64,000 bases of DNA, from assembly GCF_000092305.1 (NCBI RefSeq), contig NC_014122.1, forward strand, positions 186,001 to 250,000. The letters are read 5' to 3'. Position 1 is the first letter of the stretch. Each line of letters opens with the position of its first letter. Of the stretch, positions 15,961 through 61,616 are shown one piece after another. The position numbers were made by a program, and so were the translations under genes. Under the pieces are notes generated by a model, which saw nothing but the letters and a program-made list of their open reading frames with translations, was not told the origin of the DNA and did not search any database. This DNA is from Methanocaldococcus infernus ME (GTDB lineage: Archaea; AGJL01; Methanococci; Methanococcales; Methanocaldococcaceae).

Positions 15961-16696
15961 AAAAGTTTTTCTAAACTATACAAGAAAACAGTGGGACTTA
16001 GAGCCTGAAGAACTTATGGGAGTTACTGATAGAGTTCCTATTTTAATATCAAGAGATGATAGATATTTTCAAGATAAATATCAAGTAATGCCTAAAGAAG
16101 GTTATACAAAAATGTTTGAAAGAATGTTAAGTAGTAAAAATATTAAAATTATGCTAAACACCGATTATAAAGAAATAGTTAAAATTGATTTTGATGAAGG
16201 GAAAGTTTATTTGTTTAACAATGAGTTTAAAGGAATATTTATATATACTGGAGAAATTGATTATTTTTTTAATTACAAGTATGGAAAACTACCATATAGA
16301 AGTTTAAGATTTAAGTTTATTGAGTTAGATAAAAAATTTTATTTAGATACTGCTACTGAAAATTTTCCTAATGAATATGAATTTACGAGAATAACAGAGT
16401 TCAAGCACTTTTATAAAAGTGTTAATGATGGGAATATAAATAAAACTATTATAGTTGAAGAATATCCAGAAAAATATAATGAAGAAAATGAACCTTACTA
16501 TCCAATTCCAAAAAAGGAATATTTAGAAATTTATGAAAAATATAAAAAAGAAGTAAGTAATCTAAATAATAAATTCAGAAATATTAAATTTTATTTTGTT
16601 GGAAGATTGGCAGAGTATAGATATTACAATATGGATAAGGTTGTAGAGAGAGCTTTAGAAGTGTTCGAAGAAATAAAAGAAGGTGAAAAAAAATGA
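15941..16696 (+). pseudogene. glf: C-terminal remnant of UDP-galactopyranose mutase
   Basis: The frame is open from 15941 after a TAA at 15938. Read from there it gives GKYIYEKVFLNYTRKQW and then ELMGVTDRVPI, SRDDRYFQDKYQVMPKEGYT and GRLAEYRYYNMDKVVERAL. These are the middle and end of Glf, which makes UDP-galactofuranose. The N-terminal FAD-binding half (about 150 residues) is absent, because the sequence upstream is the radical SAM gene. An internal ATG at 16016 could give 226 residues, but without the FAD domain it cannot be an active mutase. It overlaps the sulfotransferase gene by 4 bp. Confidence 0.85.
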
Positions 16697-17619
16697 AAGA
16701 TAATACTGAATCAAAACTACCTAATTTTTTAATTGTAGGAGCTGCCAAAAGCGGTACTACATCTCTTTATCATTATTTAAAAGAGCATCCTGAGATTTAT
16801 ATGAGTCCTATAAAGGAACCCAAGTTTATTACTTCTAATTTTTTAAAGTTTCCATTTCAAGGAATAGGTGATCATCTTGTAGAAAGAAGCATAATTAAAA
16901 CATGGGAAGACTACACTAAACTATTTTCTAAGGTAAAAAATGAAAAAGCTATTGGTGAGGCTAGTGCAGATACCCTATACTACTATAAGAACAGTATAAA
17001 ATACATTAAAAAATATTTAGGAGAACCAAAAATAATAATAATTTTACGTAATCCAATAGATAGAGCATTTTCTGCTTATTTACATTTACTAAGAGATAAT
17101 AGGGAATACTTAACATTTGAAGAAGCTTTAAAAGTAGAAAAAAAGAGAATAAAGCTAAATTGGGATTTTATATGGCACTATAAAAATGTAGGATTCTATT
17201 ATAAGCAGGTAAAAGCATATATGAAATATTTTTCAGAAGTTAAGATATATTTATATGATGACCTCAAAAAAGATACTCTTAAAGTTGTTCAGGACATATA
17301 CAAATTCTTAGAAGTTAATGATTCATTTGTACCTACAAGTATAAAAATAAAGTTTAATGTTTCTGGTATTCCTAAAAATAGATTTTTGCATCGTTTTTTA
17401 ACACAACCCAATCCCTTAAAAAGTGTTATTAAACCTTTTGCGAAAGCTTTGATCCCTAAAGACATGAGAGAAAAGATCATGAATAAACTGATCCAGATAA
17501 ATCTTGAAAAGTTACAAATGAAGCCAGAAACAAGATCATACTTAAAAAATCTTTATAGAAAAGATATATTACGACTACAAGATGTAATTGAAAGAGATTT
17601 ATCTCATTGGTTAAAATAA
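16693..17619 (+). CDS. PAPS-dependent sulfotransferase 1
   Basis: A 308-residue cytosolic-type sulfotransferase. The 5'-phosphosulfate loop is FLIVGAAKSGTTSLYHYL and the 3'-phosphate motif is IIILRNPIDRAFSAYLHLLR. IGEASADTLYY fits the acceptor-side region of heparan-type enzymes. The likely acceptor is a surface glycan, since it is joined by a 4-bp overlap to the glf remnant (inference). It contains CpG dinucleotides (for example in AGCGGTACT and TTACGTAAT) that are rare in the core genes here, a sign of transfer. Confidence 0.85.
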   Translation: MKDNTESKLPNFLIVGAAKSGTTSLYHYLKEHPEIYMSPIKEPKFITSNFLKFPFQGIGDHLVERSIIKTWEDYTKLFSKVKNEKAIGEASADTLYYYKNSIKYIKKYLGEPKIIIILRNPIDRAFSAYLHLLRDNREYLTFEEALKVEKKRIKLNWDFIWHYKNVGFYYKQVKAYMKYFSEVKIYLYDDLKKDTLKVVQDIYKFLEVNDSFVPTSIKIKFNVSGIPKNRFLHRFLTQPNPLKSVIKPFAKALIPKDMREKIMNKLIQINLEKLQMKPETRSYLKNLYRKDILRLQDVIERDLSHWLK

Positions 17620-17675
17620 ATAATCTATTGTTCTACAGATCATGTGCTCGTAATTAATATGTATACTATCTTCAT
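17620..17675. other. Gap between sulfotransferase 1 and the IS remnant
   Basis: A short AT-rich spacer after the sulfotransferase stop. I see no gene or clear terminator; it abuts the left inverted repeat of the degenerate IS. Confidence 0.4.
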
Positions 17676-17922
17676 GAGGTTGTCGAAAATTAAAAATTGA
17701 TTATTATTGATTTATTACTTGATATTACTCTTATTAAAGTTTGTATGTTGTGAACTATCTATATTATATTAATACATTTCATTCTCCAATCTTACTGATA
17801 ATTTTAAGTAGATTTTTTCCGTCTTGACCATATCTACTATCCCAAACAGCTGAAGTTATAGAAATTAAACCATAATCTTTATAATAACAAAGCTAAGATT
17901 GAAAGTTTATCATGAATTTGTT

Positions 17923-18135
17923 TTATTTAACCTTCTTTTTTGTAATATACATCAATCTGTTTATGGTAGCTCCGGTAGAATCTGATATATATAGCTTATC
18001 TGAACTTTTTAGAAGTTTATCAATTATTTCGTAAGTAATAGGGAGAATTTTAGATAAATCTTCTAAAGTAATTCTTTTAAATGACCTACCAAACGTAGAA
18101 TGGTCAATATACGGATTAAACAGAGTTTTTGACAA
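17923..18135 (-). pseudogene. Transposase fragment (DDE, IS5/IS4-like)
   Basis: The longest surviving open piece of the transposase, 70 codons, containing KLYISDSTGATINRLMYITK. Upstream and downstream homologous pieces are separated by stop codons. It encodes neither a complete N-terminal domain nor the later catalytic residues, so it is inactive. Confidence 0.7.
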
Positions 18136-18311
18136 TGTTTCTAAATCTCTTAAACTTATTTTAAGGATAAATTTTATAATAAAGGCTGATATATACTGAT
18201 TATATGATAATAAAGGATTTCTACCGACTCTACTAAACTTATTTTTGGATTCACCAAGTTAGTTATGGATAAAATTAAAATACAAGTTTGACGTAAATCA
18301 AAAAGTGAGCA

Positions 18312-18417
18312 TCTTCTGTCCTATTTTTTCCAGTACTATTTTTACATTTTTATCCGCTCATACATTTTATTATCTCTTTAACTATATTCCATAATTTCAT
18401 AATTTTTCGACAACTCC
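18312..18417. repeat. Exact 106-bp direct repeat, copy A (IS right end)
   Basis: This segment is identical, base for base as read, to 20044-20149. It includes the terminal inverted repeat and the IS sequence upstream of the transposase. The second copy lies in the same orientation 1.7 kb away on the far side of sulfotransferase 2. Confidence 0.9.
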
Positions 18418-19099
18418 CTGATGTTGGTAAAGTTAAAATCGTGCAGTGTTGATAGAAAATCAGAAAAAACCTAAGTATTTAGTTTCTACATACTATAAAA
18501 AGAAGATAGAAAGCATAATAAACGAGTATATGATGGAATCAAAGATAGAAAAAAACATAGAAGGAATAAATCGATTTTAGAAATCGAAGAAAACCATCTA
18601 ACGTCCAAAAAGAGCAACATTGAATTTGTTAGATTTATAGCAATAGTATTAAACTGTATAAAATATTTAAGCCTAAATACGGATTATCGTCTTATAAAGC
18701 GATTAAAGGTGTAGTAAAGAACTAATAAAGAAGGAAATATCGTGATCACACTGTCAGTTAATACATTTTTCATCTTTTTAGAATGAATAACTTTATATAC
18801 TCTGAAGACACTTATAAAGACTAGTTTATAGAAATATCATTTATATTAAGATAACTCTAAATGAACATGAGCGAAAAAATTAATTAATAGCAAATTAGAA
18901 ATAATGTATTTTGAGATATAATGATATAACAAAGTCTCTAAAACATAAAAAATTTAAGAAATTTAGTATTTAATACAAACTTTATTAAATTTATACTATT
19001 TAAAGTAATACATTTAAGTAATACACTCTTAACAATAACTCTTATATTAAAATTTAAAAATTATTAGGTATCATTTCCCAAAAAAATAGAACACAATAT
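18418..19099. other. Gene-free decayed DNA between the IS and sulfotransferase 2
   Basis: There is no intact gene. On the plus strand around 18461-18580 a short frame reads YLVSTYYKKKIESIINEYMM, and at about 18620-18715 another reads EFVRFIAIVLNCIKYL. Both look like the C-terminal part of a second decayed transposase, although the family assignment is weak. The rest is AT-rich with scattered stops. The region before 19100 probably holds the promoter of sulfotransferase 2, but I could not pick a convincing TATA box. Confidence 0.45.
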
Positions 19100-19111
19100 T
19101 TGGTAGATATT

Positions 19112-20029
19112 ATGAATCTCAAAAATAAAAAAGTTAAAGTTCCTAACCTTTTTATAATTGGTGCTGCAAAATCAGGAACAACATCATTTTGTAATTGGAT
19201 AAAAAAATCGGATAAATTTTATTTTCCAAAAGGTCTAAAAGAACCACTGTATTTTTCAAATGCTCCAAATAAAAATGTAAAAACATTAGAAGAATACATA
19301 TCATTATATAAAAATAGTAAAGACTATCAAATTTTAGTAGATGCTAGCGTTATTTACTTTCATTCACCAAAATATACAATTCCAAAGTTAAAAGAATTTT
19401 ATGGTAAAAAATTTCAAGAGTTGAAATTTATAGTAATATTAAGGGATCCAATAAAAAGAGCAATTTCAGAATATCTAATGGCAGTAAGAGAAGGTTGGGA
19501 AACGAGGGAATTTAATGATGTAATAAATAGTTTTCTTAAGGGAAATGATGAATATTATTTCAAAAATAGTTTATATTGGAGACAATATTTAGAATGGATC
19601 AAAGAAGTGAACCCAAGTAATATAAAAATAATAATATTTGAAGAATTAATAGAAAATAAAAATGTAATTATAAAAGAACTTGAAGAATTTTTAAACATTA
19701 GTTTAAGTGAGTTATATAATGAAGAGATTCCAAAAATTAATTCTGGAGGATTATTTAAAAATGAATTTTGTAAAATACTATATCATATTTTATATAACAA
19801 AAAGTTAATCTCAATTGTAAAAAAATCTTTGCCTGAACCATTTTTATATAAAGGAGACCTTTTAATTAAAAGATATATATTAAAAAAACCAGATTATAAC
19901 AGCATAATCAATAAAGACAATCTAGAAAAACTTAGAAAAATACTTGGTGAAGATGCAAAGAAACTTGGAGAGGAATTAAGTATATTAAATAAAATTGTAA
20001 AATATTGGAATTTTACCTTAAACAAGTAA
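19112..20029 (+). CDS. PAPS-dependent sulfotransferase 2
   Basis: A protein of about 305 residues with FIIGAAKSGTTSFCNWIKK (5'-phosphosulfate loop) and FIVILRDPIKRAISEYLMAVR (3'-phosphate motif). It is a distant paralogue of sulfotransferase 1. The ATG at 19112 is chosen over an in-frame TTG at 19100, though the ribosome binding site is weak. The gene is very AT-rich with codons such as TCG and ACG that core neighbours avoid. It ends 14 bp before the second IS end. Acceptor unknown; a sulfated surface polymer is a reasonable guess. Confidence 0.82.
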   Translation: MNLKNKKVKVPNLFIIGAAKSGTTSFCNWIKKSDKFYFPKGLKEPLYFSNAPNKNVKTLEEYISLYKNSKDYQILVDASVIYFHSPKYTIPKLKEFYGKKFQELKFIVILRDPIKRAISEYLMAVREGWETREFNDVINSFLKGNDEYYFKNSLYWRQYLEWIKEVNPSNIKIIIFEELIENKNVIIKELEEFLNISLSELYNEEIPKINSGGLFKNEFCKILYHILYNKKLISIVKKSLPEPFLYKGDLLIKRYILKKPDYNSIINKDNLEKLRKILGEDAKKLGEELSILNKIVKYWNFTLNK

Positions 20030-40905: not shown

Positions 40906-41613
40906 ATGAGTGTTAGCGCAACACGAATCGTTAGGATGTTGGAGATTATTGATAATAAAGCTAAATTTATGGGTATTAAATTAACAATGATAAGGAACTT
41001 ATTAGAAAGATACAAAAACAATAAAGAATTAATTAAAGAGGTTTTAAAACTCACTGAAGGGAAAAGATTATATGACTTAATCTTAGAAGCTTGTCCTGAA
41101 TTGAAGGAAGTGGTTGATGAAATAAAATATGAAGAAATCTATGAAGAAGAGAAAGAAATTATTAAAGAGGAGATTGAATCTTTTAGCTTTGAAAATAGAA
41201 TTAGTCTTATGGCATATATAAAGGATCACCTAAGGGATATGTACTTTGGAACAAATTCAAATAAAATTTTTTATGAGATAGGAAAAAACTATGCTTTAAA
41301 ATGTAATATCAAAAGTTATGAAGAGATGGAAGAGCTTATTAAGGAAGAGTTTGGAGAGGTAGAAATTATAAAGGATGATAAAGATATTAAAGTTATAATA
41401 AGGGATAATAAAGAAGCTAAAAATTATGTATCTTCTGAGCCTGTTTGTTGTATTGCCAGTGGTGTTATCTCAGGATGCTTAGAAAGTATATATAATAAAG
41501 AGTTTATTGTAGATGTGTTTGAAGAAAAGTGTATAGCTAAAGGAGATGAATATTGCTTATTTATAGCAAAGAAGTCAAGAAAATTAATTAGAGAATTATT
41601 TGATAAATATTAA
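40906..41613 (+). CDS. V4R-domain protein upstream of chemotaxis genes
   Basis: A 235-residue protein. Residues 1-95 are helical (MSVSATRIVRMLEIIDNKAK); the C-terminal half matches the V4R small-molecule-binding domain, with CCIASGVISGCLESIYNKEF and the signature FEEKCIAKGDEYCLFIAKK. V4R domains bind hydrocarbons or metals and often act as sensors. It is the first gene of a plus-strand run into CheF, CheY and CheC, so a sensing role in taxis is plausible (inference). Four CpG cluster between 40859 and 40927. Confidence 0.7.
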   Translation: MSVSATRIVRMLEIIDNKAKFMGIKLTMIRNLLERYKNNKELIKEVLKLTEGKRLYDLILEACPELKEVVDEIKYEEIYEEEKEIIKEEIESFSFENRISLMAYIKDHLRDMYFGTNSNKIFYEIGKNYALKCNIKSYEEMEELIKEEFGEVEIIKDDKDIKVIIRDNKEAKNYVSSEPVCCIASGVISGCLESIYNKEFIVDVFEEKCIAKGDEYCLFIAKKSRKLIRELFDKY

Positions 41614-41629
41614 AAAGAGGTTGAGAGTG

Positions 41630-42667
41630 ATGCCATCAAAACCTAAGGAGATAGCAAGGTTCAATGGAAAGGGAATATTATTAAACCAATATACTATGAA
41701 AAATCCTGCTCTAAAATGGGAGAAGTTAGAAATTATATTATATGAGGATCACTTTGAATTTATTTTCCCAAATAGAAAAATTAATGTTGAAATCCAATAT
41801 GTTGAAGATGTTGGAGCTGAGTTACCAAGGAGAGCTATAGAAGTTGCTAAGGCTTCTTTAGAAGATATTACTTACCACTCCTCTATAGTCTATAAGTTAC
41901 CAAACTCAGACAAAACAATGGTTGGTTTTGCTCCAGAAACATCAATATATGGAAGAAAGCCAATAGAGATATTTTTAAACCATGTCTTCCATGTTCTCTT
42001 AGATAAGAAACCCTGTAAAATCCAATATGCTGCAATTAAGGGAGGAACCTTAGATCCAAATGTAAAATGGGAGGATGGTAAGTTTATATTTGTTAAAAGA
42101 AAATCCTCATTAATAAGTGCTGATCTCCTTGCTGTTGTTGTTATCAAGGATGGAAAGCCAAAGGCATATAATATATTCACAAATATAGAATCTATTAGAA
42201 TAAAGAATAAGCTTGTTGATGACAAAGAGGAGGAAGTATTAGAGATAAAGCAGGTTAAGAATAATGAGAATATTACTTCATACTTATATGTCCCAGCAAG
42301 GGAAAGGTTGTTTGTTTTAAGGTACATATATACATTAACAAAATACAAGAATGTAGTTAAAGATCTATTACCAAAAACTGAAGATGAAATAGCTTCTGAG
42401 TTTGCTGCTGAAGCCTTCTCTGGAGACAAAATAAAGAGTGAGCTTGAAAAGCTTACTCCAGAAGAGCAAGAGATTCTTATGGCTTTATATACAGGGATCT
42501 CTTCATTAGAGCTACCTAATGTTTTAAATATGGATGTTGATGAAGTTGAAAGGATACTTGATGACTTGATAGAGAAAGGTTTATTAACCCTTGTAAGAAT
42601 TAGAAAAGAAGTTGAACTTTCAGAGAAGGGTAGAGCAATAACAAACTATATAGTCTCTAACTTCTAA
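41630..42667 (+). CDS. cheF: Archaeal chemotaxis adaptor CheF
   Basis: About 345 residues from an ATG at 41630. The N-terminal domain (IARFNGKGILLNQYTMKNPA, then HFEFIFPNRKINVEIQYVED) and VGFAPETSIYGRKPIEIFLN match DUF439/CheF. The C-terminal region from about 270 is a winged-helix (LTPEEQEILMALYTGIS, then LIEKGLLTLVRI). CheF links phosphorylated CheY to the archaellum motor in archaea. It overlaps nothing and is followed 20 bp on by cheY. Confidence 0.85.
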   Translation: MPSKPKEIARFNGKGILLNQYTMKNPALKWEKLEIILYEDHFEFIFPNRKINVEIQYVEDVGAELPRRAIEVAKASLEDITYHSSIVYKLPNSDKTMVGFAPETSIYGRKPIEIFLNHVFHVLLDKKPCKIQYAAIKGGTLDPNVKWEDGKFIFVKRKSSLISADLLAVVVIKDGKPKAYNIFTNIESIRIKNKLVDDKEEEVLEIKQVKNNENITSYLYVPARERLFVLRYIYTLTKYKNVVKDLLPKTEDEIASEFAAEAFSGDKIKSELEKLTPEEQEILMALYTGISSLELPNVLNMDVDEVERILDDLIEKGLLTLVRIRKEVELSEKGRAITNYIVSNF

Positions 42668-42687
42668 AAAAGTAAGGAGGGATTTCA

Positions 42688-43065
42688 ATGGCAAAGATAG
42701 TAAAAACCTTAGTTGTTGATGACTCAGCATTTATGAGAAATATATTAAAGAAGATATTAACTTCCACAGGTAAGTTTGTTGTTGTAGGAGAAGCTTCAAA
42801 TGGAAAAGAGGCAATAGAAAAAGCTAAAGAGCTTCAGCCAGATTTAATAACTATGGATATAGTTATGCCAGAGATGGATGGGATTACTGCAACAAGAGAG
42901 ATAAAGAAGATCTTACCAAATGTAAAAATAGTTATGTGTACCTCCATTGACCAAGAGAAGAAGGTTATTGAAGCCCTTGAAGCTGGAGCTGATGGTTACA
43001 TAGTTAAGCCATTCCAAGCTCAGAAGGTTATAGAAGAGCTTAATAAATTGTTCCCTGATGAATAA
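42688..43065 (+). CDS. cheY: Chemotaxis response regulator CheY
   Basis: A 125-residue receiver domain: VVDDSAFMRNILKKIL (acidic pair), phosphoacceptor in DLITMDIVMPEMDG, threonine/serine switch in VMCTSIDQEKK, and lysine in YIVKPFQAQ. A strong AAGGAGGG ribosome binding site precedes the ATG. Phospho-CheY would act on the archaellum through CheF. Confidence 0.93.
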   Translation: MAKIVKTLVVDDSAFMRNILKKILTSTGKFVVVGEASNGKEAIEKAKELQPDLITMDIVMPEMDGITATREIKKILPNVKIVMCTSIDQEKKVIEALEAGADGYIVKPFQAQKVIEELNKLFPDE

Positions 43066-43134
43066 AATTTTTTATATAGCATAATAATAAATCTTCTTAA
43101 GTATAAATCTTTCTATTTTGTAATGGGGTTGATT

Positions 43135-43866
43135 ATGAAATATGGAAAAGTTGAAATCTCACCAAAGTCTTGGGAGATCATTGTGAAAAATATTATTGAA
43201 GATACCTTAGGGAATGGAGAAAGTAAAGGGAAGATAGATTTAGAGAACTTATCAAAAATTGAAGAAGTTGGTAAGTTTGCTTCTGAGAAGGCCATGAGAT
43301 TTATCTCAGATATGACAGGTTATAAATCATGTCTCAAGGTTTTTAATGTTAGGCTAATAACCCCATCAGAGATTATGGAAGAGTATGGAGATGAGAAGAG
43401 AATCTTTACTAAAATAGACTTTTCTGGAGATATAAAAGGGTCAGGGATATTAATATTCTCTGAAGAAGATGCTATTAAGTTGGCTAAAGCTATGTTGTTA
43501 GGCATGGGAATGGAATCAGATAGTGATGAAATGGATGAGATGAAAATATCAGCTATAAATGAGATCTGTAATATTTTAATTTCTGCCTATGTTGATTCTT
43601 TTGCAAACTTTATGAAAACCTCTCTAACCATGACTCCTCCAGAGTTTATAACTGGCTCTGGAAAAGAGGTTTTAAAGAAAATTTTTGAGAAGTATAATAT
43701 AGGGGATGAAATAATCTTAGCATTTAGATCAACTTTACATGTTGAAGAGGTTGGCTCACAGTTTGATGTCCTTATAGTGTTACCACAGGAATCTGTAACC
43801 ATGATCTTTGAGGCTATAAGAAAAGGAGAAATTAATGATAAGCTCTCTGTAAAGTATGACCAATAA
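43135..43866 (+). CDS. cheC: CheC/CheX-type CheY-P phosphatase
   Basis: About 243 residues. The second half carries the CheC consensus S-x3-E-x2-N-x22-P in KISAINEICNIL through MTPPEF. The corresponding motif in the first half (SKIEEVGKFASEKAMRF) is degenerate, so only one active site appears intact. GGGTTGATT precedes the ATG at 43135; the frame extends to 43123. It presumably dephosphorylates CheY. Convergent with the ABCE1 gene. Confidence 0.82.
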   Translation: MKYGKVEISPKSWEIIVKNIIEDTLGNGESKGKIDLENLSKIEEVGKFASEKAMRFISDMTGYKSCLKVFNVRLITPSEIMEEYGDEKRIFTKIDFSGDIKGSGILIFSEEDAIKLAKAMLLGMGMESDSDEMDEMKISAINEICNILISAYVDSFANFMKTSLTMTPPEFITGSGKEVLKKIFEKYNIGDEIILAFRSTLHVEEVGSQFDVLIVLPQESVTMIFEAIRKGEINDKLSVKYDQ

Positions 43867-49596: not shown

Positions 49597-49754
49597 ATTT
49601 TCACGAAATTCGTAATCTATATTATATTATGGTGTCCGGTTCTTGTTTATATAACTTTATATAATGGCTATTAGGTTTATTTATATCTTATTTTTGAAAA
49701 TTTGATTTTATATATTTAAATATATAAATATAGTTGGGTAAAATAGTGATTAGA
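49597..49754 (-). promoter_or_regulatory. Promoter region of the GT4 gene
   Basis: 158 bp between the glycosyltransferase start and the distal CRISPR repeat. It holds several TATA-like tracts, for example TTTATATAACTTTATATAAT at 49647-49666. I cannot decide which is used. Confidence 0.4.
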
Positions 49755-50383
49755 GTGTTTATCCCCTAAGGGGCGTTATTTTACTTGCCTAAATTACTAC
49801 TATTGACGAAACACTTCTCGTTTCCATCCCCTAAGGGGCGTTATTTTACTTTATTAGGGTTAAAGAAAATGGATTTATATGCGATTATGTGGTTTCCATC
49901 CCCTTAGGGGCGTTATTTTACAGAATTTAAAAGTGTTATCATCTACGGAAAGAAAAGAGTTTCCATCCCCTTAGGGGCGTTATTTTACTTTGAACGAATT
50001 CAGAAATAGAGCAATAATAGAATGTTTCCATCCCCTTAGGGGCGTTATTTTACGATGTGATATTCAGAATAAAACTACCTGATGGGTTTATGTTTCCATC
50101 CCCTTAGGGGCGTTATTTTACTTAAGACATTATATGATGAACTGCCTAAAATAAGTTTCCATCCCCTTAGGGGCGTTATTTTACCTGGAGACTTCTGAAG
50201 CATTAAAGGCTCAGCTTGGTTCGTTTCCATCCCCTTAGGGGCGTTATTTTACGAATTTTCAGTTATATTTGAAATTTCAATCACTGCGTTTCCATCCCCT
50301 TAGGGGCGTTATTTTACTTTAATCTTTTTTGTGATGCTAACTTAATTGCATATGTTTCCATCCCCTTAGGGGCGTTATTTTAC
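49755..50383 (-). CRISPR. CRISPR array 1: 10 repeats, 9 spacers
   Basis: Thirty-base repeats start at 49755 (degenerate), 49820, 49892, 49959, 50024, 50092, 50155, 50223, 50288 and 50354; spacers are 33-42 bp. Read on the minus strand the repeat begins GTAAAATAACG, has the palindrome CCCCTAAGGGG, and ends ATGGAAAC, the usual form of an archaeal 8-nt crRNA tag. The two leftmost repeats carry a changed palindrome centre and the leftmost has a mutated end. Both signs place the old, distal end on the left and the leader on the right. Confidence 0.95.
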
Positions 50384-50807
50384 AAGGCAAAATTTTGCTT
50401 ATTTATAACATTCGCTCTTATAGTATATAAGCTTTATCCTAACCAACAGGCTGAAGGTTAGGTTCTCCCATTTATTTAAAAAGATCTGAAGTTTGATAAA
50501 AACCTTTACTTTCCTTAATACTAAAATAAAACCAAACCTCAAAACCAAAAACAAAATTTCCAAAGGGAAAATAAAATTCTAAAAATAAATAACCCAAAAA
50601 ACTAAAAAAGCCCAATAATTCACAAAAACCGAATATTCAAATTAATAACATTAAGCTACCCTCCGAAGCTAATTAAAAACCAAATAAAAATCAAAAAATC
50701 CCACCTAAAAACAACAAAAACCTAAAAACAAGAACTTCAAACAAGACACAACCTAAAAACCAATAAGAATAAATAAAACTAAGATAAAAATCATCAAGCC
50801 ACTTTAT
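50384..50807 (-). promoter_or_regulatory. Leader of CRISPR array 1
   Basis: A gene-free 424-bp stretch between the array and rfcL. It is strongly skewed: the plus strand is A/C-rich, so the transcript strand is T/G-rich, typical of archaeal leaders. A TATA-like TTATATACT on the minus strand lies at 50419-50427, about 36-44 bp upstream of the first repeat. I see no open frame. Confidence 0.75.
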
Positions 50808-53763: not shown

Positions 53764-54321
53764 ATGTTCTCAGAGAGGGAATTAAAAGATTTGATAATTT
53801 CAGTTATTATGATAGCTATCATCTTTGTCTACCCTCATATAAGTTTAACAAATATTTTAATAGCTCTCCTAACTGTTGGTTTGGGCTTTATATTTCATGA
53901 GCTTATGCATAGAGAAGTTGCCAGAAAGTTTGGAGCTATTAGTGAGTTTAGAGCTTGGTATGAAGGTTTAATTATTGGTTTAATATTGAAAATGATACTT
54001 GGAGCCACATTTATAGCCCCTGGAGCTGTCTATATTTATAAGGATTACTTAACTGTGGAAGAGAGTGGAAAAATAGCACTTGCTGGACCTTTAGCAAATA
54101 TTTTATTAGCTATTCTATTCTTTCTCCTAACCTTAACTCATGGAAATTATTTACTAAATATTATAGGCTTCTTTGGCTTTCATGTAAACCTCTTCTTAGC
54201 TGGCTTTAACCTCTTACCAATCCCTCCATTTGATGGAGAGAAGGTTATTAGATGGAACCCTCTGATTTGGGCAATCTTTGGAATTCCTTTATTAGCCTAT
54301 GTCTTCCTAAGGCTCTTCTAA
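53764..54321 (+). CDS. Site-2 protease family (M50) membrane protease
   Basis: A 185-residue polytopic protein. The zinc motif is FIFHELMHREVARKFGA (HExxH) in TM2, and the second motif is FNLLPIPPFDGEKVI (NxxPxxPxDG). AGPLANILLAILFFLLTL is the conserved inner hairpin. It is short with no PDZ domain. It would cleave membrane proteins inside the bilayer. The end overlaps the convergent CheF-like gene by 15 bp. Confidence 0.88.
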   Translation: MFSERELKDLIISVIMIAIIFVYPHISLTNILIALLTVGLGFIFHELMHREVARKFGAISEFRAWYEGLIIGLILKMILGATFIAPGAVYIYKDYLTVEESGKIALAGPLANILLAILFFLLTLTHGNYLLNIIGFFGFHVNLFLAGFNLLPIPPFDGEKVIRWNPLIWAIFGIPLLAYVFLRLF

Positions 54322-55023
54322 GAAGCTCTCAAAGTGACAAGTAGTTTTAAACTCCTTAAGAAGCCCAACATTTACATTTAGCACACTCTTTAAATATTTT
54401 AACAAGAAATATTTTAGTTCATCATCAAGGGAGAGATATGAAGTTACCTTCTTTCCCACAACTGACTGAGTTATTCTCAAATAGCCATTTTCAAGATTTA
54501 CATCTTTTATTTTTGAGAATATGTCATAGTATTCTTTATCTCTTGTTTCAAATAAAATTTTTTCTTCAATTTTTGTTATAAAATTAACCTTAATTTTCTT
54601 CTTAACTAACTTTAGTTTTCCCTTTTTCCATTCATCACTCTTTTTTATATTATACAGAACTTCCAACTCCTTATCCAAAATAAATTTATAGAGAATTTCT
54701 TTTAAAACTGATTTGACTGGAAATTCTCCATAGATAGAGCTTTCAACACCAAAGGCTATCATAGCAAGGTCTTCTTCAAATGGGATAACTATTGAAGAGA
54801 TGTTATAAGCACCTTCTAATGTAGTCTTTATTAAATACCTAACCTTCTTTGGAACTTTAGAGTCAATATCTATTATATCATTAAATTCAGCCTCTAACTC
54901 TTTATTTTGAAACTCAAAAACTATTTTACTATCATCAATAAAAATATCTAACTTTTCCCATCTATCAAATAATGTAATTTCTTTTCCTCTTTTTAAAAAA
55001 AATCCCACTCCTGAGAATTTCAT
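54307..55023 (-). CDS. CheF-like protein without winged-helix domain
   Basis: A 238-residue protein matching the N-terminal two thirds of CheF at 41630: LEGAYNISSIVIPFEEDLAM and IAFGVESSIYGEFPVKSVLK against the CheF segment with FAPETSIYGRKPIEIFL. KKVTSYLSLDDELKYFLLKY matches ENITSYLYVPARERLFVLRY. The C-terminal winged helix is missing. It is thus a divergent paralogue. It follows two small genes in one minus-strand operon. Confidence 0.75.
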   Translation of the reverse strand: MKFSGVGFFLKRGKEITLFDRWEKLDIFIDDSKIVFEFQNKELEAEFNDIIDIDSKVPKKVRYLIKTTLEGAYNISSIVIPFEEDLAMIAFGVESSIYGEFPVKSVLKEILYKFILDKELEVLYNIKKSDEWKKGKLKLVKKKIKVNFITKIEEKILFETRDKEYYDIFSKIKDVNLENGYLRITQSVVGKKVTSYLSLDDELKYFLLKYLKSVLNVNVGLLKEFKTTCHFESFLEEP

Positions 55024-55025
55024 AA

Positions 55026-55235
55026 TTATCCCATTATCTCAGAGATCTTATTCAAAATTATTTTATAGTCAGTTATTTTAGTTATGTCTTTTTCTTCTTT
55101 TAATCTCTTATTTACAATTTCCTTTAGCTCTTCTAAGCTATTTACTCTATTAAATAACTCTTTTATCTCTTCAATATGAGAGACATAGGGAAGAATCTCT
55201 ATTAGCAACTCATTAATCTCTTTTCTTTGGCTCAT
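55026..55235 (-). CDS. Small charged helical protein
   Basis: A 69-residue protein (MSQRKEINELLIEILPYVSH) made of amphipathic helices with no recognised domain. It sits between the DUF2304 membrane protein (23-bp overlap) and the CheF-like gene (2-bp gap). Operon position suggests a shared role; none can be named. Confidence 0.5.
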   Translation of the reverse strand: MSQRKEINELLIEILPYVSHIEEIKELFNRVNSLEELKEIVNKRLKEEKDITKITDYKIILNKISEIMG

Positions 55236-55557
55236 ATCTATCCCTTATAGCAATCTCTCTAACAATTTTAGTTATCTCCCTCTCCAATTTTTCTAACCTT
55301 GCATATATCCTATAAACTAAGTAGAACAATAAAATAATTGATAAATATATTATAACATCAACCCCTCTCCCAACTCCTAAGACTGTTGCTAAATAGCTCA
55401 TAAAATTTGGGAAGATAACTATAAGTAATGCCAGCAACCAAACAAATAACCAAAATATTCCTTCCTCAAGCTCCATAGATTTCTTTTTAATTTGCTTAAT
55501 AACCCTTGTTAAAGCAAATAAAATTATTATTAAGCCAACTATTTGAATAAGTTCCAA
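55213..55557 (-). CDS. DUF2304-type membrane protein
   Basis: About 114 residues. Three hydrophobic segments: LIQIVGLIIILFALTRVI, EGIFWLFVWLLALLIVIFPN and VDVIIYLSIILLFYLVYRIY, followed by a charged coil. The pattern matches DUF2304. I start at the TTG at 55557, preceded by AGGGGTG; the frame reaches 55602 but overlaps pyrB antisense. It is divergent from pyrB with a 26-bp spacer. Confidence 0.7.
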   Translation of the reverse strand: MELIQIVGLIIILFALTRVIKQIKKKSMELEEGIFWLFVWLLALLIVIFPNFMSYLATVLGVGRGVDVIIYLSIILLFYLVYRIYARLEKLEREITKIVREIAIRDRYEPKKRD

Positions 55558-55583: not shown

Positions 55584-56498
55584 GTGAAGCATTTAATATC
55601 AATGAGAGATATAGAGAGGGAAGAGATTGAAGAAATTTTAGAGGAAGCTAATAGGATGGAGAACTTATTAAACAATAAAAAGCCTTTGAAACTTCTTGAG
55701 GGGAAGATATTGGCAACTATTTTTTATGAGCCATCTACAAGGACAAGGCTTAGTTTTGAAACAGCTATGAAGAGGTTGGGAGGAGAAGTTATAACCATGG
55801 ATGCTAAAGCTTCATCAGTGGCTAAGGGAGAGAGTTTAATAGACACTGTTAGAGTAATCAGTGGCTACTCAGACATTATAGTCTTAAGACATCCAAGAGA
55901 AGGGGCTGCAAGACTTGCAGCTAAGTATTCTTCAGTCCCTATAATAAATGCTGGTGATGGAGCTAACCAGCATCCAACACAGACATTATTAGATCTATAT
56001 ACAATAAAGAGGGAACTTGGGAAGATAGACAATATAAGGATAGCCTTTATTGGAGATCTGAAATATGGAAGGACTGTTCATTCATTAGTTTATGCTCTCT
56101 CACTATTTAATAATATTGAATTCTTCTTTATTTCTCCTGAAAACTTAAAGATTCCTGAGGAGATAAAAGAATATTTAAGAAGAAGAGGGTTAAGATTTAA
56201 GGAAACTAAGGAGTTTATTGATGAAGAAATAGATGTTCTATATGTTACAAGGCTACAAAAAGAAAGATTTACTCCAGAGGAGTATGAGAAGGTTAAGGGA
56301 AGCTATAAGATAACTAAGGAGTTTGTTGAAGGGAAAAACTTTATTATTATGCATCCTCTGCCAAGGGTAGATGAGATAGATTATGAAGTTGATAATCTAC
56401 CAAATGCCAAATACTTTAAGCAGAGCTATTATGGAATTCCTGTAAGGATGGCTATCCTTTATAAGTTGCTTAGAGATTCTGATAAAGCTCTCCAGTGA
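55584..56498 (+). CDS. pyrB: Aspartate carbamoyltransferase catalytic chain
   Basis: A 304-residue protein, MKHLISMRDIEREEIEEILE. Active-site motifs are FYEPSTRTRLSFETAM (carbamoyl phosphate), INAGDGANQHPTQTLLDL and MHPLPRVDEID. The start is GTG at 55584, with AAGGTGAG upstream and the usual N-terminus. It catalyses the first committed step of pyrimidine synthesis; its PyrI partner gene is at 2981-3418. Its 3' end overlaps the CBS regulator gene. Confidence 0.96.
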   Translation: MKHLISMRDIEREEIEEILEEANRMENLLNNKKPLKLLEGKILATIFYEPSTRTRLSFETAMKRLGGEVITMDAKASSVAKGESLIDTVRVISGYSDIIVLRHPREGAARLAAKYSSVPIINAGDGANQHPTQTLLDLYTIKRELGKIDNIRIAFIGDLKYGRTVHSLVYALSLFNNIEFFFISPENLKIPEEIKEYLRRRGLRFKETKEFIDEEIDVLYVTRLQKERFTPEEYEKVKGSYKITKEFVEGKNFIIMHPLPRVDEIDYEVDNLPNAKYFKQSYYGIPVRMAILYKLLRDSDKALQ

Positions 56499-59552: not shown

Positions 59553-59938
59553 GGTTTTTTGTTATTAATAAGTTTATTGTGGTTATTAACTTTCCTAATT
59601 AAGTTTTCTTGCTTTTATATAGAGGTTGTTGGAAATTGGTACGAGAAAATTGGGAAAAAGTAATACTGATTTTTTCGTTGGAGAATTGTGATTTTTTAGT
59701 TTGTTGGATTGTTTGCTGTTATTTTATTGGTTTTAGGTTTAATTAGACTTTATTTTTAGTGAAATATGGGTTAATTGTTGAGCTTTGTTTTAACGGTTGT
59801 GCATAGTATTTTTAAATGGAGGGAACAATCTTTCTTACTTTTATATAGGGGTTCAATAATCAACCAGTAAGAAAACTCGGGTTTAAAAAGAAAGTTTTTT
59901 ATAGGAGTTTTGATATAAAATAAGGACAGACATTAAGG
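59553..59938 (+). promoter_or_regulatory. Leader of CRISPR array 2
   Basis: A gene-free stretch of 386 bp, G/T-rich on the plus strand. Two similar TATA modules occur, CTTGCTTTTATATAGAGG at 59608-59625 and CTTACTTTTATATAGGGG at 59834-59851. The second is flanked by an inverted repeat, TTTCTTACT at 59831-59839 and AGTAAGAAA at 59866-59874. The downstream module lies about 90 bp before the first repeat. I see no open frame. Confidence 0.7.
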
Positions 59939-61616
59939 GTTTGAATCGCCAGTCCATTAAAACAAGGATGGAAACTAAATTCTCCAAGGTCACAAATGGT
60001 TTTAAACGCGTGTTTGAATCGCCAGTCCATTAAAACAAGGATGGAAACTCAGTGATTCTTTGTAAGATGTATGTGGAGATACAGTTTGAATCGCCAGTCC
60101 ATTAAAACAAGGATGGAAACAATTTATCTTCTAATATATCTTTTGCGTAGTATGATAGTTTGAATCGCCAGTCCATTAAAACAAGGATGGAAACAGTCGT
60201 TTCTTGCTAATTCCCAACTATATATATAAGTTTGAATCGCCAGTCCATTAAAACAAGGATGGAAACACCCCAAATCAATTATCACATCGACTAAGTGTGG
60301 GGTAGTTTGAATCGCCAGTCCATTAAAACAAGGATGGAAACTGTTCACTTTTCTCAAGTAACTTCAAGAGTTTCTGGTTTGAATCGCCAGTCCATTAAAA
60401 CAAGGATGGAAACTTTCCCTCATACTCAAACTGATACCCAAATCCCCAACTGGTTTGAATCGCCAGTCCATTAAAACAAGGATGGAAACACCCCAAATCA
60501 ATTATCACATCGACTAAGTGTGGGGTAGTTTGAATCGCCAGTCCATTAAAACAAGGATGGAAACTGTAAATACTGTAAATTATCATTAGATACATACGAT
60601 AGTCATAAGATATAGTTTGAATCGCCAGTCCATTAAAACAAGGATGGAAACTATACTATAACCGCTAAGTAATTAACCGACAAAAGTTTGAATCGCCAGT
60701 CCATTAAAACAAGGATGGAAACAGTATAGATGGTAAAGAGCAGGAATGTCCTGAAATTGTGTTTGAATCGCCAGTCCATTAAAACAAGGATGGAAACCTG
60801 TTATCAGTCCTTTTTTTCTGAGATATTGCAAGTTTGAATCGCCAGTCCATTAAAACAAGGATGGAAACAATTACGGGTATTTTACAACAGCAGTAAGCCA
60901 AGCCAGTTTGAATCGCCAGTCCATTAAAACAAGGATGGAAACTGAGTTCATCTTTTCCAGATCTTATAATATCTTCAATATGTTTGAATCGCCAGTCCAT
61001 TAAAACAAGGATGGAAACAAACATTCATAATAAAACCTCTTCCAGCCATTCCTTGTTTGAATCGCCAGTCCATTAAAACAAGGATGGAAACAGCAAGAAT
61101 TTCTTTTCTAAATTTTCAGCATTGAAGTGTTTGAATCGCCAGTCCATTAAAACAAGGATGGAAACAGCTCTTCTTTGAGCTTTTCTAATGTCAATTTTAG
61201 AGAGTTTGAATCGCCAGTCCATTAAAACAAGGATGGAAACTAAATCAAATTTATTGATGCTTCTATTATTGCCTTGTTTGAATCGCCAGTCCATTAAAAC
61301 AAGGATGGAAACGTAAAGTTTCCAACGTTAGCATTAAATCAATTGGAGAAGTTTGAATCGCCAGTCCATTAAAACAAGGATGGAAACTTACTTTTGAGAA
61401 CTTTTTTAATAACGAAATTAAAGATTATAGTTTGAATCGCCAGTCCATTAAAACAAGGATGGAAACTTACTTTTGAGAACTTTTTTAATAACGAAATTAA
61501 AGATTATAGTTTGAATCGCCAGTCCATTAAAACAAGGATGGAAACCTAACTATCACATCTATATTTATGAATTCATCAAGTTTGAATCGCCAGTCCATTA
61601 AAACAAGGATGGAATC
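59939..61616 (+). CRISPR. CRISPR array 2: 23 repeats, 22 spacers
   Basis: Thirty-seven-base repeats begin GTTTGAATCGCC and end GGATGGAAAC, starting at 59939, 60012, 60084, 60158, 60230, 60305, 60377, 60453, 60528, 60615, 60686, 60761, 60832, 60906, 60982, 61055, 61129, 61204, 61276, 61351, 61430, 61509 and 61580. Spacers are about 34-50 bp. The last repeat ends GGAATC, marking the distal end, so transcription runs left to right. Two spacers are each present twice. No cas gene is in the window. Confidence 0.97.

Follow-up and report, generated by a model that had tools for sequence, protein, structure and literature searches.

A short CheF paralogue of Methanocaldococcus devoid of the CheY-binding domain and its possible role at the archaellum

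The window, i.e. the whole stretch of 64,000 nucleotides of Methanocaldococcus infernus ME DNA analysed here, carries two genes of the CheF family, which are the only CheF genes in the whole genome (G000). One of them, full-length, belongs to a cluster of chemotaxis genes, and the other, short and referred to as CheF-S, lies downstream of genes coding for a DUF2304 membrane protein and a 69-residue protein. Comparisons were made with a family-level set of 14 genomes (G000–G013, G000 being the window genome) and with a class Methanococci set of 36 genomes. The features of interest are as follows:

40906–43866, V4R–cheF–cheY–cheX/cheC-like cluster around the full-length CheF, with Response_reg and CheX/CheC matches
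41600–42667, plus strand, full-length CheF, with the C-terminal domain (PF04283, 2.1e-40)
54307–55023, minus strand, CheF-S (short CheF), 238 residues, two PH domains and the start of the linker helix, without the C-terminal domain
55026–55235, minus strand, 69-residue soluble protein, conserved partner of DUF2304, whose homologues adjoin DUF2304 in relatives
55213–55557, minus strand, DUF2304 (GacJ/WpsB-like) membrane protein, 114 residues (PF10066, 5e-30)
55584–56498, plus strand, pyrB-like gene, presumably encoding aspartate carbamoyltransferase, an old divergent neighbour of the DUF2304/69-residue pair

The V4R-domain gene (40906–41613) stands directly ahead of the full cheF, and the C-terminal part of the protein encoded by the latter matches the crystallised CheF C-terminal domain 7od9 at 6.8e-40. 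On the minus strand, our reading of the DUF2304 frame starts with a TTG codon at position 55557, with GGGGTG ahead of it; this gene overlaps that of the 69-residue protein by 23 bp, and a gap of 2 bp separates the stop codon of the latter from the ATG of CheF-S. This is the operon layout that had been described in an earlier note, made from the sequence alone, and the three segments ascribed there to the DUF2304 membrane protein are likewise present as three hydrophobic segments counted in its sequence. A Pfam scan of the 69-residue protein yielded no significant match.

CheF-S scores 43.2 bits with the CheF family profile PF04283 (E-value 5e-11; the cut-off is 25 bits). When its structure was modelled with AlphaFold2 from ten short homologues (mean pLDDT 84.7, pTM 0.83), the best PDB match in Foldseek was the CheF protein of P. 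horikoshii (7ovp_A, 2.5e-11); VIA aligned 216 residues of the model with residues 4–252 of this 340-residue chain (Z 17.4, rmsd 3.8), the next row, at Z 9.8, being a single PH domain. According to this match, CheF-S has both PH domains, of the type seen in PhCheF, and ends where the C-terminal domain of full-length CheF starts. Since only residues 4–252 of the chain are covered, the missing tail is real, and the earlier description of the 238-residue protein as a CheF paralogue without the C-terminal winged helix is borne out by profile and fold alike. The domain in question, which is responsible for CheF dimerisation and CheY-P binding (PMC9126983), is absent from all short members, which end at the same point and share a VGILRYL-like motif there. 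Altogether, CheF-S resembles PhCheF (7ovp; PF04283, formerly DUF439) in its PH domains, profile score and fold, but differs from it in lacking the dimerising, CheY-P-binding domain, in lying outside the che cluster and in being kept in genomes without che genes. The possibility that che-less genomes have a split CheF, whose tail has a gene of its own, was considered and rejected, no such tail gene being found in G003–G006; the same search gave in G009 a sole tail-like match, which is weak and contains a stop. Note that the tandem-PH histone chaperones Pob3 and Rtt106 also appear among the Foldseek matches, with low TM-scores (0.27–0.28).

The ten short proteins fall on one side of a branch with a support of 100/100, whether or not the tail columns are included, and this support stays the same when the three longest branches are dropped and seven short proteins are left. 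With P. horikoshii CheF as a single distant outgroup, the core tree becomes unstable and the support of the short group goes down to 61/90. Rooting in this way does not single out the oldest of the three CheF groups; identity values favour a duplication inside the Methanocaldococcus line. No short CheF was detected in the 22 genomes of other genera, where full CheF occurs in 13 genomes (14 copies, frames of 353–368). The phylum-level search covered the same 36 genomes; a contig scan for relatives outside Methanococci gave seven loci, all in methanogen or archaeal records, and a search for plasmid-borne relatives of CheF-S gave no match. Judged by these sequence comparisons, CheF-S is a separate paralogous subfamily, confined to Methanocaldococcus among the genomes searched.

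The distribution of CheF-S was compared with those of chemotaxis and archaellum genes in the family-level set. Seven of the 14 genomes (G000, G001, G002, G007, G008, G012 and G013) have full CheF, and these are also the seven that have CheW; ArlD/E and archaellins are found above cut-off in the same ten (G000–G006, G008, G012 and G013), and CheF-S is present in ten (G000, G001, G003–G008, G012 and G013), with a fragment in G010. CheF-S thus coexists with full CheF in six genomes, but its gene lies outside the che region and its occurrence is untied to the che genes. More specifically, in all four genomes that have archaellum genes and neither CheW nor CheA (G003, G004, G005 and G006), CheF-S is the sole CheF. 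Archaellins, ArlD/E, CheW and any CheF are missing together from G009 (99% complete) and likewise from G011 (89% complete). Conversely, G002 lacks CheF-S despite having an archaellum, che genes and full CheF, and CheF-S is therefore dispensable. In G007 (86% complete), which has CheF-S, and G010 (81%), which has a piece of it, arl genes are not above cut-off, possibly as a result of incompleteness. Among the ten genomes that are at least 95% complete, CheF-S is found in eight of the nine with an archaellum and is missing from the one without. CheF-S probably follows the motor rather than chemotaxis, a pattern built on few events and, as regards the link with the archaellum, on one genome.

In six of the ten genomes that bear it (G001, G003, G004, G005, G006 and G012), the CheF-S gene is divergent from guaB, an assignment backed by an IMPDH profile match. 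In G002 and G009, it is cleanly missing beside guaB, with 134 and 153 bp, respectively, to the next gene, which is the gene following CheF-S in relatives. The window genome has at this place, beside guaB, a TP_methylase gene (L101:2793-3545), which in many relatives stands behind the DUF2304 pair instead. Given that CheF-S usually sits beside guaB and that a TP_methylase gene is found there in G000, the arrangement in the window is a rearrangement, whereby CheF-S apparently moved to the DUF2304 pair. A two-break exchange between CheF-S and the TP_methylase gene was discarded, as the orientation of the latter does not fit one simple exchange. No convincing relic of CheF-S was found beside guaB in G000, G002, G007, G008, G009 and G013 (best E-value 0.15). 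On the gene maps, CheF-S is nowhere seen beside arl genes; its other neighbours are metabolic or transport genes, the list comprising guaB, a TIM-barrel gene, CbiZ and TrkH.

As CheF-S lacks the CheY-binding tail, a role outside the CheY–CheF route is the natural reading. Such a role had been suggested in the earlier note: this part of the suggestion is supported by the missing tail and by the retention of CheF-S without CheW and CheA, whereas the partnership with a membrane protein to which it was tied does not hold (see below). We propose, with moderate confidence, that CheF-S may act at the archaellum as a CheY-independent ligand of the ArlCDE switch ring. It keeps the two PH domains, which are the proposed ArlCDE-binding part of CheF (PMC9126983), and, without the dimerising, CheY-P-binding tail, it would probably be monomeric. 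CheF-S could occupy or tune the CheF site on the ArlCDE ring, thereby fixing the rotation bias or stabilising the ring; it would be the sole ligand of that kind in che-less relatives, whereas in che-plus species it would either work alongside full CheF or be its competitor. More tentatively, a PH-only, CheY-blind CheF might be a standing component of the switch ring in Methanocaldococcus, which sets the rotation bias in species that have lost chemotaxis and rivals full CheF in those that retain it. If a conserved second subfamily does follow the motor, then there exists a CheY-independent input to archaellum rotation.

The main alternative is that the PH domains of CheF-S bind another partner and that its function is unrelated to the archaellum. 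The divergence of the second PH domain points in this direction: CheF-S of G003 shares 62% identity with the full CheF of the genus in PH1 and 40% in PH2, whereas full CheFs of different genera are 55% and 54% identical to each other, respectively, although the comparison of conserved positions kept in PH1 versus PH2 gives p = 0.07. Furthermore, positions 173 and 191 are occupied by Glu in 21/21 full CheFs and by Lys or Arg in 10/10 short ones. Given this drift and these charge changes, ArlCDE docking need not be conserved, and the metabolic and transport neighbours, together with the absence of CheF-S from archaellate G002, fit a function elsewhere. On the other hand, PH1 is as close to that of the genus full CheF as the PH1 domains of full CheFs from different genera are to one another, and CheF-S and the archaellum are both absent from G009, so that we consider a role away from the archaellum unlikely.

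CheF-S is under purifying selection. The dN/dS ratio is 0.094 (G003–G006, both che-minus), 0.105, 0.127 and 0.137 in the four informative pairs; two other estimates are poor (0.48 at a dS of 0.01 for G004–G005 and 0.40 at a dS of 1.53 for G000–G012), and full CheF pairs range from 0.03 to 0.08, mostly at near-saturated dS. The copies are intact in nine of the ten genomes; the G008 copy (L019:1489-2154) displays an in-frame TAG near its C-terminus and ends about 20 residues early. The window copy is the fastest-evolving member, with the longest branch (1.95), and may be losing constraint in G000. These last two copies, as well as the absence of CheF-S from G002 and G009, would fit a decaying, functionless CheF relic that is being lost piecemeal, but this explanation is quite improbable in view of the low dN/dS ratios, the number of intact copies and the common end with its shared motif; besides, the six genomes that hold both proteins indicate that CheF-S is not a remnant of full CheF.

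As regards the two genes upstream of CheF-S in the window, DUF2304 is found above cut-off once per genome in 13 of the 14 family-level genomes, and a homologue of the 69-residue protein adjoins it in 13/13 DUF2304-bearing Methanocaldococcus genomes. Across the class, DUF2304 is present in 31 of the 36 genomes, 18 of these 31 lying outside the family, and the 69-residue homologue stands beside it in 12 of the 17 loci examined in other Methanococcales, CheF-less genomes included. The usual neighbours of the pair on gene maps, where some of the genes were scanned with profiles, are pyrB, divergent from the pair in 9/13 genus genomes, and a TP_methylase gene, whose family was assigned by scanning a homologue, convergent behind it in 7/13 (G001, G003, G004, G005, G006, G009 and G011); in other genera, five of the 11 loci examined share this order (pair, pyrB, TP_methylase). 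DUF2304 is kept without any CheF in G009, G011, G034 and G035, and G000 is the one genome in which CheF is next to the pair, the coordinates placing it elsewhere in the others (about 6 kb apart in G008). The pair is older than, and separate from, its association with CheF-S, and the earlier proposal that its two members are partners of CheF-S is not upheld. Of the two points named in the earlier note as telling against it, the absence of the arrangement outside this genome was observed among the genomes searched, and a lack of fold similarity to CheF was not. Tight spacing does imply co-transcription in this genome, but it is very improbable that CheF-S and the pair work together as a single membrane-associated regulator of taxis or of the archaellum, since the arrangement, when looked for, was found in one of the 31 DUF2304-bearing Methanococci genomes, CheF-S lies elsewhere in nine other genomes of the genus and DUF2304 is kept without CheF. 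We infer from the spacing that CheF-S and the pair are merely co-transcribed, in this lineage alone.

The DUF2304 proteins with tested roles, GacJ and WpsB, are activators of a GT2 enzyme that produces lipid-linked GlcNAc (PMC8327497 and PMC10821137). The window protein resembles these helpers of GacI and WpsA by its PF10066 match, its three membrane segments and its conserved C-terminal part, which in WpsB is the modelled site of contact with the enzyme, but differs by its 69-residue partner and by the fact that no GacI-like gene was identified adjacent to the pair on the gene maps, where some of the neighbours were scanned with profiles. As the tested DUF2304 proteins are glycosyltransferase helpers, the pair is, by analogy, most likely a glycosylation unit, i.e. 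the helper of a membrane glycosyltransferase unrelated to taxis. Note that in G013 a V4R-like-looking gene (L055:4686-5375) is divergent from DUF2304, in the usual place of pyrB.

The existence of the CheF-S subfamily explains the 'CheF without Che' of M. jannaschii. CheF occurrence is stated to be strictly correlated with che genes (PMC6718144), and M. jannaschii, whose DUF439 protein was called truncated at its C-terminus by Schlesner et al. 2009 (PMC2666748), has until now been an exception to this tie, without explanation. Used as a named control, M. jannaschii gave matches to PF04283, ArlD/E and DUF2304 and none to CheW. G003, which we take to be M. jannaschii, has a single CheF, which is short and belongs to the same group as the window copy. 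In Schlesner et al. 2009 and Altegoer et al. 2022 (PMC9126983), the M. jannaschii protein is regarded as a CheF, or possibly as non-functional or different, and neither paper frames it as a second conserved subfamily; no paper on a PH-only CheF subfamily was found by title or abstract beginning in the openly accessible literature searched. We infer that the crystallised MjCheF is probably the CheF-S paralogue, although the accession list in PMC9126983 omits it. If CheF-S is indeed a standing component of the switch ring, then the crystallised MjCheF would be a switch-ring component rather than a chemotaxis adaptor, and the M. jannaschii protein would be unfit as a stand-in for the latter. The second haloarchaeal CheF (OE2404R) is also a paralogue of CheF, whose role is distinct and milder, but it lies in the che region, interacts with CheY, CheD and CheC2, and arose in haloarchaea (PMC2666748).

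Finally, some other features of the window deserve mention. Positions 16001–20000 have a low GC content (0.235–0.255), possibly the mark of a recent island, and the genes there are presumably sulfotransferase-like. A CRISPR-like array at 59928–61616 comprises about 23 near-identical repeats with a spacing of 71–87 bp, including a tandem pair of identical 79-bp units. Another CRISPR-like array, distinct from the first, lies at 49753–50394 and consists of 10 repeats spaced by 63–72 bp.
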